Positions 7,739 to 13,209 of a DNA stretch of 46,566 bases are shown here, piece after piece. How positions within the stretch are numbered: the first letter of the stretch is position 1; every line of letters starts with the position of its first letter. Under the pieces are notes generated by a model. It was not told the DNA's origin. It made no database searches and saw nothing but the letters and a program-made list of their open reading frames with translations. Made by a program: the position numbers and the translations under genes. Origin of the DNA: Vulcanimicrobiota bacterium. GTDB lineage: Bacteria; Vulcanimicrobiota; Vulcanimicrobiia; Vulcanimicrobiales; Vulcanimicrobiaceae. The stretch is from contig DAHUZB010000016.1 in the NCBI GenBank assembly GCA_027306785.1, positions 1-46,566 on the forward strand, written 5' to 3'.

Positions 7739-7750
7739 GATTGCAGACAG

Positions 7751-7780
7751 AACCCGGCATCGCTGCCGGGTTCTTCTTTA
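7751..7780 (+). terminator. Rho-independent terminator after tRNA-Ser
   Basis: A perfect 9-bp stem AACCCGGCA/TGCCGGGTT with the tetraloop TCGC, followed by CTTCTTTA, starts 12 nt after the tRNA. On the other strand it could also limit minus-strand readthrough from the SnoaL-like gene ending at 7792, though its T-tract favours the plus direction. Confidence 0.88.
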
Positions 7781-8097: not shown

Positions 8098-8152
8098 CCC
8101 ACCTACCTCCGCTCGGGCGTCACTGCCACGCCGCGCGCGCAGGCTCCTCGCA

Positions 8153-9328
8153 TCAGCGCCGAAAGTCGACGAGCTCCGGCGCCTTCGTGCTCGCCGCGTC
8201 GTGGTGCAGCGCCTCGCGTGCGGATCGTGCGACGACGAGCACGTCGTCGTAGCTCGGGCCCTCGGCGAGCGCCGCCAGTCGCCGCGCGATCGCCTCGGGA
8301 TCGCAGAGACCCGCCTGATCGACGAGCAGCAGGCGCAGCGTGTCGCGCCCGTGCGCGTCGAAGCGCAATTGCACCTGAAACGCCTCGGCCTCCGCCGCAA
8401 GCGCGGCGATCGCATCGAGGTCGAAGGTCATTTCGAGAAACTGAAACGAGCGGCGATCGCGACCGCGCAGTTCGAGATAGCGCGAGCCCTCGTGCGCGAC
8501 GATACGACCCACATCGCCCACGCGATAGCGAAAGACCGGAAAGCGCGCTCGATACGCGTTCGTCACCGCGAGCGCGCCGAAGCCCTCCGCGTCGGGATCG
8601 AGCACCTCGACGACGATGCCCGGCAGCAGCGCGAAGAGCCCGGGCGCGCGCGTGGCGTCGCTCCACGCCCAGATGCCGGTCTCGGCGCCGCCGTAGAGCG
8701 ACCAGATCTGCCGCACGCCGAAGCGCTCGGCGAGCAGTCGCGTCGTGCTCTCGCGTAGCGGCTCGCCCCCGTAGACCAGCTGCGGGATCGCGAGGCGCAC
8801 GTCGGCTTCGCCTAAATACCGCGCGAAGAGCGTGAGCTTGGACGGCGTGCCGAGCAGATGCGTCGGCGTGAAGCGGTGCGCGATCGCGAGCAGATCCGCG
8901 TACGGGGCGTGCGCGCTCATCGCGAGCGTGGTCGCTTCGCAGCGCTCGAGCAGATCGTCGAAGATCGCCGCGGTGCGGTAGAGCTCGGAGTATCCGAAGA
9001 CGTTGAGCGCCACCGTGTGCGGCCCGAAGATCCCCGCGGCGCGCAGATGCTGCGCGAGCGCCGCGCGCTGCGCGTGATTCTCGACGATATCGACCGGAAA
9101 GACGAGCGGTTCGTTCGTGCTGCCGCCGGAGCGCACCAGGTACACGCCGCGTGCTTCGGCGCCGGGCGTGAAGGTTCGCAGCTGCGCGAGGAGCGTCGCT
9201 TTCCCGATCGAGGGCGCGGCTCGATGATCGTCGATGCCCGCAAGCTCGGTGCGAAAGAACGGGTGCGCGCGGGCACGTTCGAAACAGACGCGCAGCAGTT
9301 CGTCGTCGGTACGCTCCGGGCTCAGCAC
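8153..9328 (-). CDS. PaaK/CapK-like adenylate-forming enzyme
   Basis: The 391-residue protein resembles the phenylacetate-CoA ligase/CapK branch of adenylate-forming enzymes. The nucleotide-binding loop appears as LVRSGGSTNEPLVFP, where the family has SGGSTG-x-P or SSGTTG. A second core motif, SLYGGAETGIWAW, corresponds to the Y-G-x-T/A-E motif. A hinge region FRYRVGDVGRI follows, and a small C-terminal lid domain starts near RGRDRRSFQF. It probably activates a carboxylate as an acyl-adenylate; the acceptor (CoA, amine or sugar) is unknown. The GTG start at 9328 overlaps the GT2 stop by 7 bp. It sits in an operon with a glycosyltransferase, an ATP-grasp ligase and a haem-oxygenase-like protein, which points to biosynthesis rather than phenylacetate catabolism; no paa genes are present. 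Confidence 0.72.
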   Translation of the reverse strand: MLSPERTDDELLRVCFERARAHPFFRTELAGIDDHRAAPSIGKATLLAQLRTFTPGAEARGVYLVRSGGSTNEPLVFPVDIVENHAQRAALAQHLRAAGIFGPHTVALNVFGYSELYRTAAIFDDLLERCEATTLAMSAHAPYADLLAIAHRFTPTHLLGTPSKLTLFARYLGEADVRLAIPQLVYGGEPLRESTTRLLAERFGVRQIWSLYGGAETGIWAWSDATRAPGLFALLPGIVVEVLDPDAEGFGALAVTNAYRARFPVFRYRVGDVGRIVAHEGSRYLELRGRDRRSFQFLEMTFDLDAIAALAAEAEAFQVQLRFDAHGRDTLRLLLVDQAGLCDPEAIARRLAALAEGPSYDDVLVVARSAREALHHDAASTKAPELVDFRR

Positions 9329-10224
9329 GCGATGCCGAACTCCGCGAGCAGCGCGCGATGATGCGCGATAAACTCCGCCGCCTGCGCGTGGGGCAGCGTT
9401 GCGCGGGCGTGCGCGAGCCAACGCTCGGCGAGCATCGCCGCGAGCGCGCGATCCCGCGCATCGCCGCTCGCACGATAGCGGGCGAGGCTAGGCGGAATCG
9501 CGAGCGCGCGCCAGTCGGTCGGACGCGCGTGCGAGAGGCTTGCGCTCGTGATGCGAAAGCGAATCAGCGGCTCCGCGCAGAGCGCAACGATCTCCCCGTC
9601 GTCGGACGCGGCTTTGAGCACGCGATACCACAGATCCACGCCTTCGTTCAATCGCGCGTGCGCGTCATACCGTAACGTGCCCAAGCACGAGCGCTGCACC
9701 GCGACGTTGCTCGCGCGCCCCATCACGAATTCCGGATGCGCGGCGGCGCGCGGCGGATCGATCAGGCGATACACGTCGGGCGCGAGCGGCTCGAGCTCAC
9801 CCGCGAGCAGGCCCAGATCGGGAAAGGCCTCGCCGGGCGGATCGCTCGCGTAGCCGAGCACGAGCATCGCGAGACGATGGCGCTCCATGCTCTCGCGCAC
9901 GAGTTGCAGGGCGCCCGCGTGCAACGCATCGTCGGCGTCTAGACAGAGCACGACATCGCTGTCGACGCGGGCGATGCCGTCGTTTCGCGCCGCGCCCGGC
10001 CCGCCGTTGCGCGCCCGTCGCACGATCTCCGTGCGCGTCGCGCGCAGGGCGCCCGCATGGCGATCGAGCGCCGCTTCGAGCGCGGCCACGCTGCCGTCGG
10101 TGCTCGCGTCGTCGACCACGATCAACTGTTCGGGCGGCGCGCTCTGCGCCGCGAGCGAGGCGATCGCGTCGCCGATGTACGACGCCTTGTCGTAGAGCGG
10201 CACGACGACGGCAAGCGAGGTCAT
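9322..10224 (-). CDS. Family 2 glycosyltransferase
   Basis: The 300-residue GT-A fold enzyme shows the GT2 pattern. It has AVVVPLYDKASYIGDAIASL at the N-terminus, LIVVDDASTDGS with the nucleotide-binding Asp pair, RNGGPGAARNDGIA, and the DXD-like metal motif LCLDADDAL at about residue 110. The later part, EFVMGRASNVAVQRS then NEGVDLWYRVL, is where the catalytic base (ED-like) is expected. There is no membrane segment, so it is likely cytoplasmic. The start overlaps the upstream ATP-grasp stop as ATGA, and the stop overlaps the adenylating enzyme. Donor and acceptor are unknown; the operon context suggests glycosylation of a small product rather than a polysaccharide. Confidence 0.88.
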   Translation of the reverse strand: MTSLAVVVPLYDKASYIGDAIASLAAQSAPPEQLIVVDDASTDGSVAALEAALDRHAGALRATRTEIVRRARNGGPGAARNDGIARVDSDVVLCLDADDALHAGALQLVRESMERHRLAMLVLGYASDPPGEAFPDLGLLAGELEPLAPDVYRLIDPPRAAAHPEFVMGRASNVAVQRSCLGTLRYDAHARLNEGVDLWYRVLKAASDDGEIVALCAEPLIRFRITSASLSHARPTDWRALAIPPSLARYRASGDARDRALAAMLAERWLAHARATLPHAQAAEFIAHHRALLAEFGIAC

Positions 10225-11456
10225 GCGCCGACCAGCGGTACGTAGATGCGCCCGCGCTCGCCGTGCACGTTGATCACCTTGGCATCCGAACCGCGAAAGA
10301 CGCCCGCGCCGTAGCTCACGTCATCGCGGCAGAGCTGCATGCCGACCAGGTGCACCGGCCGCTCGCCGTCGACCACGACGAACGGATATTGCTCGACGTA
10401 GCGCTGGTACATGTCGCGGCGCCACTCGGCGCGCACGCGCGCGCGCCAGCGCTCTTCACCGCATTCGCTGCGTACCAGGGCGTCGATGCCGCGTCCGCCG
10501 CTGCTGCGTTTGGCGATCAGCTCCTCATGGCGCGCCACGAACGCCTCGCACTCCTCCACGTTGCGGATCACGAACGACGGGATGAGAAACGCGCGCAACA
10601 ACGCGCGATCGGCGGGCGCCAGCAGATCGGCGAGAATCGCCTCGTCGTCGAGCACGGCGAGCGTGCGCTTATCGTGCACGAGAATCAGCGTGCGAACGTC
10701 GTTGAAGTAGCAGCCGCGTTCGATCATCAGGCGCAGGGCGTCGCGCGGGATTGCCGCAAGCTCGCTGCGATCCATCTCGAGGATGCAAGCGTCGATCGCG
10801 CGATCGCCCGCGAAGAGCCGCCCACCGCGATCCGCGAGCGCCGCGGGCGGCGTCTGCACGAACTCGATGCCCCGCTCGCGGAGCGCCCGCGCGAGCAGAA
10901 AAATTTCGGTACCGGCCTCGCGCTCGTGCACCATCGAGACCACCTGACCCGGGCGATATCCGGCGCAGAGATCGTCTACGAAACGGAGCTGTTCGTGCTG
11001 CACGCCCAGGCCGAGATCGCCCGCACGGCTCGCATAGGCGTCGATGACCGCGCGGCTGAGCATCCAGCCGTTGAGCGGATAACGCGCGCCGATCTCGCAG
11101 ATGCGCGGCTGTCCCTCGCGATCGTACACGAAATCCGGGCGATGGAATCCCACGCGGTACGGCTCGGCCGCATGCGCCGCGCAGAAGGCGAGCAGTTCGT
11201 CAAGTTCGGGCGGCAGCGCATAGACGGCGCGAATCCGCGCATCCTCGTGGTAGCGCGCCACGATTCCGCGCAGCGCCGCATCGAGCACGCGGTTAAGCGC
11301 CCGCAGACGCTCGAGATAGGCGGGCGCGAGGATCGCCGGGTAGGGTGCGATCTGCTCGGGCGCAACCACCGGCGGATCGCCGAGCAAGCGCGCGAGCTCC
11401 GCGCGCGCATCGTCGGCAAAGGCGCGCGACGCGATGTGAAGCGAGTGATCCAGCAT
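10221..11456 (-). CDS. Circularly permuted ATP-grasp-like ligase
   Basis: The 411-residue protein from the ATG at 11456 resembles circularly permuted ATP-grasp proteins of the glutathionylspermidine-synthase-like type. Typical blocks are VGFHRPDFVYDREGQPRICE followed by ARYPLNG (substrate/ATP-grasp strand); VSMVHEREAGTEIFLLARAL; LEMDRSEL, where related proteins have a YRR-type motif; FNDVRTLILVHDKRTLAVL; and IAKRSSGGRGIDAL (Lys plus Gly-rich loop for ATP). Such enzymes join a carboxylate to an amine through an acyl phosphate. The substrate is unknown. An in-frame extension up to 12374 was rejected, because it overlaps the upstream gene in another frame and has no coding character. The gap from the upstream stop is about 17 nt, and the downstream GT2 overlaps as ATGA. 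Confidence 0.68.
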   Translation of the reverse strand: MLDHSLHIASRAFADDARAELARLLGDPPVVAPEQIAPYPAILAPAYLERLRALNRVLDAALRGIVARYHEDARIRAVYALPPELDELLAFCAAHAAEPYRVGFHRPDFVYDREGQPRICEIGARYPLNGWMLSRAVIDAYASRAGDLGLGVQHEQLRFVDDLCAGYRPGQVVSMVHEREAGTEIFLLARALRERGIEFVQTPPAALADRGGRLFAGDRAIDACILEMDRSELAAIPRDALRLMIERGCYFNDVRTLILVHDKRTLAVLDDEAILADLLAPADRALLRAFLIPSFVIRNVEECEAFVARHEELIAKRSSGGRGIDALVRSECGEERWRARVRAEWRRDMYQRYVEQYPFVVVDGERPVHLVGMQLCRDDVSYGAGVFRGSDAKVINVHGERGRIYVPLVGA

Positions 11457-11473
11457 CGAGGCCGTCTTCGCAG

Positions 11474-12295
11474 TCAACGCGCCGCCACCGCCTCCGCCAC
11501 CCCGAGCGCGCAGACCGCATCGATCACGGCGGCCTTCTTCTCCACGTACGCGGCCACGATCGGGCCGAGTTCGTAGCTGCTCAGATCGCGATCGAGCGCG
11601 GTTGCCGCATGCCCGACCGCATGGAGCGCATGAAAGAAGTGATTCTTCTCCGTCGGGCCGCAGTGCACGCGAATCCAGGCGAGCGCGCGGCGCGCCTCGC
11701 TCGGCGTCATCCCGTACTGCAGCACCGCGCGTTCGAAGAGCGGCAGGATGAACTCCACTTCGCCGTGCGTGTAGATTTCGTGCACGAGCGTGGTGAGTAG
11801 CGCGATCATCGGATCGGCGTCGCGCAGCGACGCGCGGTCTTTCCACGCCTTGAATGCGCTTGCCGTCTCGTCGATCCACTGATGCGAGAGCCAGGCGTCG
11901 TCGCCGACGAACGCGGTCGCCATCTCGTAAAAGAGCTGCGCGTGCAGCACGTGTCCCACGACCGCCAAATCTTCGTCGATGATGCGGTCGAGGCTGGTCA
12001 ACGCGCGCAGGAGCGCCGTTTCGTCGGCGACGGGGTCGCCGCGGTGCAGCAGCAGCGTGAGGCGGTTTCCGATTCCGGCGACCGTCATCGCGCTGTTGTT
12101 CGTCTGTGCCCAGCTCGCAAAGAAGCGCCGCAGCGCCGCGGGCTCGCAGCGCCGCGCCGTCATCGTGCGAAAGCCCGTTTCGATGCGGGCAAACGCCTGC
12201 GGATGCGCGGCGAACGCGACGAGGAGTTCGCGTTTGAGATGCGACTCCGGCATCGATTCCAATACCGGTGCCACGATCGCGTAGAGAGAGTCCAT
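11474..12295 (-). CDS. Haem-oxygenase-like (possibly di-iron oxidase/TenA-like) protein
   Basis: The 273-residue, all-helical protein starts at the ATG at 12295, with AAGGG about 9 nt upstream. I see a pattern like the haem-oxygenase-like di-iron oxidases and PqqC/TenA relatives. A helix IIDEDLAVVGHVLHAQLF has a Glu seven residues before a His. A later helix VHEIYTHGEVEFILPLFERA has further Glu/His. The C-terminal helix WIRVHCGPTEKNHFFHALH has H-x4-E-x2-H, close to the usual H-x3-D/E-x2-H. These could form a metal site, but this rests on pattern only, and alignment or structure prediction could change it. It heads the operon with the ATP-grasp, GT2 and adenylating enzymes. About 160 nt upstream to aroE should hold the promoter. 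Confidence 0.5.
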   Translation of the reverse strand: MDSLYAIVAPVLESMPESHLKRELLVAFAAHPQAFARIETGFRTMTARRCEPAALRRFFASWAQTNNSAMTVAGIGNRLTLLLHRGDPVADETALLRALTSLDRIIDEDLAVVGHVLHAQLFYEMATAFVGDDAWLSHQWIDETASAFKAWKDRASLRDADPMIALLTTLVHEIYTHGEVEFILPLFERAVLQYGMTPSEARRALAWIRVHCGPTEKNHFFHALHAVGHAATALDRDLSSYELGPIVAAYVEKKAAVIDAVCALGVAEAVAAR

Positions 12296-12459
12296 GATCA
12301 CACCCTTGTCTCGAACGTGCGAAACGACGGGTATGCACGAAATGCGTACGCTGACGGAGCTCCTTCGAACGCACACCCCTCGTTCCGCGGAGAATACCGG
12401 GCTGTTGCGTTCGCGGCGCGTCCGCTCCTCTCGGGACGTTCGGCCTATGACGACGGTTG

Positions 12460-13209
12460 CTAGACGGGTTCTTCTTCGGGTGCGACGCCGTCGAGGTGCG
12501 CGAGCCAGAAATCGAACGAGGCGCGGGCCTGCGCTTCGAGCATCGCGTCGCCGGTGACGATCTCGCGCTCGAGCTGGCGATGCAGCGTGGAGCGCTCGCC
12601 GTAATTCGCGTCCATCAGCAGATCGGCATGCATCAGCGCATCGAGCATCGCCGGTTCGAAGCGCACGCTCGGCGGCAGCGTGCTGATCACGATCTCCGGC
12701 GGGTTCTCGAAGGGAAACGGCTGCGCGTCGTAGCGCTCGCAGGCGGCCTCCACCTTCGCGCGATCGCGCCCCCACACGAAGCAGTAGGCATCGTGATCGG
12801 CGAGTTCGGCCAACAAGGCGCGTGCCGTGGCGCCGTAGCCGAGCACGCCGATGCGCTTGAGCGCGACCGAATCGTCGAGCAGTGCTTCGAGCGCGGTGCG
12901 CGCACCGATCCCGTCGGTATTGTGGCCCAAAATCTCGCGCCCGAAGAGAATCGTGTTCACCGCGTCGGCGCGCTGCGCTTGGTCGGTGAGCGCATCGCAG
13001 GCGCCGAGCGCCTCTTCTTTGAGCGGATAGGTGACGTTGCAGCCCAGGTAGCCGTCGAGGCGCATGCGGCGGATCACGGCGGTCGCGTTGCTCGCGGGCA
13101 CGCGAATCGCGACGTAGCTGCCGTCGATTTCGGCGTCTCGAAGAAACGCTTTGTGCAACTGCGGCGAGCGGCTATGATCGACCGGGTCGCCGATGACCGC
13201 GAGCTTCAC
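12460..13209 (-). CDS. aroE: Shikimate dehydrogenase AroE
   Basis: The 249-residue protein matches shikimate dehydrogenase (NADPH-dependent reduction of 3-dehydroshikimate in aromatic amino-acid synthesis). The N-terminal substrate site is clear: VIGDPVDHSRSPQLHKAF, then GCNVTYPLKEEAL with the catalytic Lys and neighbouring acidic pair in place of the usual NVTxPxK. NTDGIGARTAL follows. The cofactor loop is VLGYGATARALLAEL, a GxGA/G variant of the usual GAGGA. The length is slightly short (family about 260-290). The GTG start at 13209 overlaps the yqeG stop as GTGA. The C-terminal EAQARASFDFW matches the family's Q-A-x-x-x-F-x-x-W tail. Confidence 0.93.
   Translation of the reverse strand: MKLAVIGDPVDHSRSPQLHKAFLRDAEIDGSYVAIRVPASNATAVIRRMRLDGYLGCNVTYPLKEEALGACDALTDQAQRADAVNTILFGREILGHNTDGIGARTALEALLDDSVALKRIGVLGYGATARALLAELADHDAYCFVWGRDRAKVEAACERYDAQPFPFENPPEIVISTLPPSVRFEPAMLDALMHADLLMDANYGERSTLHRQLEREIVTGDAMLEAQARASFDFWLAHLDGVAPEEEPV

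Follow-up and report, generated by a model that had tools for sequence, protein, structure and literature searches.

What could four closely packed genes make together when no nonribosomal peptide synthetase (NRPS) or polyketide synthase (PKS) accompanies them? This question is raised by positions 8153-12295 on the minus strand of the window, as we call the whole 46,566-nucleotide (nt) stretch of contig DAHUZB010000016.1 from a Vulcanimicrobiota bacterium. A sequence-only reading of this DNA had described four same-strand genes there, free of NRPS and PKS genes, and both points are confirmed: the open reading frames (ORFs) encode, in transcription order, a haem-oxygenase-like protein that is likely a dimetal oxidase (HDO), an ATP-grasp ligase, a GT2 glycosyltransferase and a PaaK-like ligase. 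We see about an even chance that these genes form an autonomous biosynthetic cassette which is independent of any NRPS and has probably spread horizontally; its product would appear to be a small, oxidised, amide-linked molecule, probably bearing a sugar.

Conservation of the four genes

A locus scan with the ATP-grasp ligase as query and one genome per species returned 29 loci. The full four-gene set, in identical order and strand, was present in all 27 loci with sufficient flank, which comprise 5 from Sphingomonas, 1 from Chromobacterium, 2 from metagenome-assembled genomes (MAGs) of Lysobacterales, 4 from Nitrospirillum/Azospirillum and 15 from Flavobacterium. Left out were a locus of the same-genus genome G001 (L007), whose contig stops within the ATP-grasp gene, and a fragment from a KSB1 MAG. 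Co-occurrence at 27 of 27 testable loci is far beyond chance, and the operon of the sequence-only reading thus passes the neighbourhood search proposed with it. Pairwise distance matrices of the four proteins correlate at 0.94-0.98, as expected of genes that evolve and move jointly, with common species history adding to the correlation. No flanking genes common to different lineages were seen, except for extensions in Flavobacterium and Nitrospirillum.

The cassette is nonetheless rare. It occurs in 2 of 149 genomes of the window's phylum and in 1 of 299 in a sample of the Flavobacterium family, and an independent search with an HDO profile matched 2 of 349 Pseudomonadota genomes, one with the full cassette and the other (G372) with a partial set discussed below. 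The cassette has probably spread horizontally. Carriage by plasmids or viruses was considered and rejected, since no plasmid matched the ATP-grasp ligase and no viral contig matched the HDO. PADLOC gave no match for any of the four proteins, which led us to reject a defence system as well.

Coupling between the genes is tight in the window, largely as first described. The ATP-grasp gene (10221-11456) and the GT2 gene (9322-10224) share a 4-nt ATGA overlap, and the GT2 gene overlaps the PaaK-like gene (8153-9328) by 7 nt. The 17-nt gap reported between the HDO gene (11474-12295) and the ATP-grasp gene is less secure and may be an artefact of start choice, because an alternative in-frame TTG at 11477 would put the ATP-grasp start 4 nt into the HDO stop, and because in the Sphingomonas cassettes the ATP-grasp ORF begins within a 4-nt overlap at this junction. 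No sigma-70-like promoter was found for the cassette.

Genomic context of the cassette

In G002, a genome of the same genus without the cassette, the order EAL, tRNA-Ser, SnoaL, aroE, yqeG and nrdJ is unbroken, with the stop codon of aroE overlapping the start of SnoaL. Matches of the window to L096 by blastn stop at 8102 and restart at 12475, with tblastn synteny on both sides, so that relative to G002 the window holds an extra segment of approximately 8103-12474 between the SnoaL gene and aroE. The sequence-only reading had allowed that the SnoaL-like gene might be a fifth member of the operon. Since aroE overlaps SnoaL in the intact order of cassette-free G002, we assign the gene to the backbone; it is syntenic in two cassette-free genomes and was never matched near the other cassettes, which rules out membership. 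A strong terminator-like hairpin of 11 pairs lies at 7749-7774 of the window, with the tRNA-Ser gene on one side and the end of SnoaL on the other.

Formally, the window lineage may have gained the segment or G002 may have lost it, and the patchy distribution favours insertion. G001 carries the cassette at the same site as the window (L099), with identities to the window of 66% for HDO and 60% for ATP-grasp, against 80% for aroE and 94% for yqeG and nrdJ; the G001 cassette is hardly nearer to that of the window than are those of Lysobacterales (64%) or Sphingomonas (59%). This disparity between the cassette and the neighbouring yqeG and nrdJ suggests that the cassette diverged fast, was replaced or arrived twice at this site. 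Atypical composition was rejected as a trait of the cassette, because its GC content (68.8%) and its GC content at third codon positions (83-85%) resemble those of its neighbours, and there is therefore no compositional sign of recent arrival. No direct repeat of at least 9 nt was found at the insertion ends.

A divergent haem-oxygenase-like protein

The first gene of the cassette encodes a protein of 273 amino acids (aa) that matched no Pfam or NCBIfam family. Haem_oxygenas_2 (PF14518) was among the families without a match, and hhalign against seven proteins of the PF14518 model gave a probability of 1%; we therefore do not place the protein in that sequence family, and its designation as an HDO relies on the predicted fold. 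An AlphaFold2 model built from 22 homologues has a mean predicted local distance difference test score (pLDDT) of 90.6 and a predicted template modelling score of 0.89. Among known structures HDOs match it best, namely UndA (Z 19.6 over 241 residues), CADD (18.8), HrmI (18.3), and FlcD, PolF and BesC (approximately 16), with HDO structures other than UndA scoring Z 14-19. Helical bundles can reach Z of up to approximately 13 by chance, and the HDO matches exceed this value and span most of the protein; proteins of the same fold that are not HDOs (TenA, PqqC and haem oxygenase) also score Z 13-18. The model thus predicts the haem-oxygenase-like helical fold that had been proposed from the letters of 11474-12295.

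Compared with UndA, CADD and HrmI, the predicted fold superposes over 210-241 residues with a root-mean-square deviation of 2.8-3.2 Å and places Glu and His on matching segments, but identity is just 11-14%, the PF14518 match is missing, and the middle helix carries a further invariant His/Glu. The motif His-x3-Asp-x2-His of CADD corresponds to His-x4-Glu-x2-His here.

E108, H118, E181, H211, E216 and H219 are invariant across the aligned homologues, within the conserved segments D107-E108-D109...H118, H172-E173...H177-G-E179-V-E181 and H211-x4-E216-x2-H219. Of the two motifs previously proposed, H-x4-E-x2-H is therefore retained as an invariant feature, whereas the first is E108-x9-H118 and not E-x7-H; His115 of the window copy is not conserved. 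DtpC has the same E-x9-H spacing (E143 and H153; PMC13232832). Three His and three carboxylates would fit as candidate ligands by pattern, an assignment made by motif analogy, above all for E181, which we took as the middle candidate because E181-FILP resembles the E-D-L-I-P of L082, a likeness of pattern and not of geometry. In G372 (L044:9824-13183), an intact HDO-like gene is accompanied by a degenerate HDO-like gene and a GT2 gene, and the degenerate copy has changed E108, H118, E173, H177, E179, E181, H211 and E216, while retaining H172, H219 and several further residues. Because this tandem copy has lost most of the ligand-like residues, the comparison supports a functional role for those that changed, and the two genes are perhaps an active and inactive pair. 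By analogy with characterized HDOs the protein would bind metal, with diiron or Mn/Fe chemistry likely.

Two ligases and a glycosyltransferase

The second gene encodes a protein of 411 aa, modelled with a pLDDT of 88.2, for which the permuted ATP-grasp assignment is upheld: the model has a glutathione-synthetase-type fold. Its best structural match is Cp1B (9cjn; Z 33.7, 26% identity over 394 residues), with the peptidylpolyamine synthetases YjfC and YgiC and glutathione synthetases ranking behind, and Cp1B is also its sole significant sequence match in the PDB (profile E 2e-31). Of the four catalytic residues tested in Cp1B, R139, D141 and E163 correspond to R106, D108 and E121, which are invariant in 16 sequences. 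Because catalytic N165 is replaced by an invariant Gly123, however, we treat the family as a distinct relative of Cp1B and not as its orthologue.

A homologue of this ligase also occurs in another setting. In the KSB1 MAG (G067, L029:2-2440), a protein of 813 aa has the homologue, at 37% identity, as its C-terminal half, preceded by an N-terminal half that appears to be a DegT-like aminotransferase dependent on pyridoxal phosphate (PLP); a radical S-adenosylmethionine (SAM)-like gene follows. A PaaK-like homologue of the same genome is on a separate stretch (L106), adjoining a different ATP-grasp-like gene. Immediately downstream of the cassette, the four Nitrospirillum-type loci (L016:13084-14933, also L011, L013 and L015) encode an additional GT2 and an additional ATP-grasp-like protein that matches PF05770 weakly.

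The third gene encodes a GT2 glycosyltransferase of 300 aa (PF00535, 91.6 bits, E 7e-26) with invariant acidic motifs D38-D39, D96-x-D98-D99 and E194-x2-D197-x-W199, consistent with GT-A catalytic motifs. The fourth, a PaaK-like member of the ANL enzymes of 391 aa with a GTG start, matches PF00501 above the cut-off (34.7 bits) and conserves S-G-G-S, Y-G-x-A-E, R-Y-x2-G-D-x-G-R and C-terminal K382, as would be expected of the AMP-binding core and C-terminal Lys of ANL enzymes. Both family assignments of the sequence-only reading hold, with the motifs for glycosyl transfer and adenylation intact. The best PDB match of the PaaK-like protein, 9s3l, is labelled phenylacetate-CoA ligase, and we found no paper on that structure. 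Since the cassette has no conserved companion gene for an acyltransferase or carrier protein, direct formation of an amide or ester would be the simplest role for this enzyme.

Comparison with NRPS-free pathways

The protease inhibitor E-64 is made without an NRPS by Cp1B, an ANL amide bond synthetase and an oxygenase: Cp1B couples epoxysuccinate to an L-amino acid to form the first amide bond, and the ANL enzyme Cp1D then attaches an amine (PMC12568646). The E-64 clusters (cp1/cp2 in Aspergillus and mfa in Microcoleus; PMC12568646) resemble the cassette in being small and in pairing an ATP-grasp of the Cp1B type and an ANL ligase with an oxidase that uses O2, without an NRPS, the likeness of Cp1D to the PaaK-like protein being drawn at the level of ANL enzymes and not of subtypes. 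They differ in that their oxidase is Fe/alpha-ketoglutarate-dependent where the cassette has an HDO, and in having a PLP decarboxylase and no glycosyltransferase. With neither the Fe/alpha-ketoglutarate oxygenase nor the PLP decarboxylase among its four genes, the cassette is not an E-64 cluster. Clusters that pair an HDO with an ATP-grasp ligase are a recognized class that includes mangotoxin, according to the text of PMC13185094 available to us. As described there, the mbo cluster sets an HDO beside ATP-grasp amino-acid ligases without an NRPS, but it has two such ligases and a redox partner, MboB, and no PaaK-like or GT2 protein is named in that text. We found no paper naming the four-gene combination, which could be among the at least 25 kinds of HDO and ATP-grasp cluster counted in that source; the combination thus appears to be undescribed, while its HDO and ATP-grasp core belongs to a class already known.

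Because an oxidase, an ATP-grasp ligase, an ANL ligase and a glycosyltransferase are parts that fit pathways like those of E-64 and mangotoxin, we infer an NRPS-free pseudopeptide logic, with reactions, step order and product type argued by analogy. The HDO would carry out an O2-dependent oxidation, its substrate being an amino acid, a different carboxylate or a small amide already assembled. The Cp1B-like ligase would condense a carboxylate, which it first phosphorylates, with an amine, the PaaK-like enzyme would adenylate a carboxylate and make a second amide or ester bond, and the GT2 would add a sugar.

Several observations weigh against this proposal. Substrate and product are proposed from homology and analogy, the ATP-grasp ligase differs from Cp1B at a catalytic residue, the PaaK-like enzyme could form coenzyme A thioesters instead, and no redox partner gene is conserved beside the HDO. 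The four genes are also not always required together, because G372 keeps its intact HDO, degenerate HDO and GT2 genes while neither ligase was detected there by profile search. In Flavobacterium, moreover, the cassette comes after a peptide-maturation set.

Alternative roles

This last arrangement is found in 14 of the 15 Flavobacterium loci, in which two to three tandem DUF1843/GDL-type peptides of 56-58 aa lie upstream on the same strand, as do a methyltransferase and a radical SAM/SPASM protein that approaches TIGR03913 (525.9 bits, where the cut-off is 591.75); three of these loci have a further GT2 in this upstream set. At L014:6377-8994 and its equivalents in the 14 loci, the peptides, radical SAM protein and DOT1-like methyltransferase are directly upstream. 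An unmatched protein of approximately 220-260 aa is encoded upstream of the peptides, and a gene for a tyrosinase-family protein and one for a PpoB2-type copper chaperone lie a few kb upstream of the cassette at L022:1096-3726, L025, L027 and L030. We found no product assigned in the literature to the DUF1843/GDL and TIGR03913 system.

A combined product of peptide and cassette is plausible in Flavobacterium, and the four enzymes could more generally be a tailoring module for ribosomally synthesized and post-translationally modified peptides, acting on GDL-motif peptides in Flavobacterium and on unrecognized or unlinked ribosomal peptides elsewhere. HDOs are able to act on ribosomal peptides (PMC13108848), and Chromobacterium G063 and Lysobacterales G065 encode peptide and maturase elsewhere in their genomes. 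We nevertheless consider this role unlikely. The linkage in Flavobacterium may stem from one ancestral event; in the window genome, its congener, Sphingomonas G060, G062 and G064, searches matched neither DUF1843 nor, above the cut-off, TIGR03913; and no GDL-type peptide was found by tblastn or a PF08898 search beside cassettes outside Flavobacterium, the window included. The GDL-peptide radical SAM system, though adjoining the cassette in Flavobacterium, thus went undetected in the window genome and in most of the other carriers tested outside Flavobacterium, and since these lack both components above the cut-off the cassette does not seem to need them. The enzymes might instead be centred on a sugar, both ligases acylating an aminosugar that the GT2 moves to a glycan, lipid or small acceptor. 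The persistence of the GT2 with the HDO in G372, the apparent DegT-like aminotransferase fused to the KSB1 ligase and the second GT2 of the Nitrospirillum-type loci would each suit such a scheme, but the KSB1 example comes from a single fragment, 37% identical, of a genome without an HDO, and genes for sugar nucleotides or polymers do not accompany the cassette in a conserved way, so that we regard it as quite improbable. A protective or cofactor-like intracellular metabolite, in place of a secreted natural product, has precedents in DtpC, which serves desiccation tolerance (PMC13232832), and in CADD, which acts in para-aminobenzoate synthesis (PMC13108848), and no exporter is conserved with the cassette; its very patchy occurrence in the window's phylum, Pseudomonadota and the Flavobacterium family sample makes this reading very improbable.

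Within the preferred reading of an NRPS-independent biosynthetic cassette, a bolder and unlikely version would have the four enzymes make a new class of small glycosylated pseudopeptides, with a new HDO subfamily installing the reactive group and, in Flavobacterium, hybrids of ribosomal and nonribosomal origin formed with radical SAM-modified GDL peptides.

Significance

The oxidations carried out by HDOs are unusual, yielding nitriles, azetidines, alkynes and olefins, and the HDOs with a validated function numbered only about a dozen in early 2026 (PMC13108848). The cassette is small enough for all of it to be expressed in a laboratory host, which makes its product open to direct test. It represents a compact, strictly ordered four-gene set centred on an HDO-like subfamily that escapes sequence models, and it brings with it two candidate amide-forming enzymes, of a kind wanted as biocatalysts.
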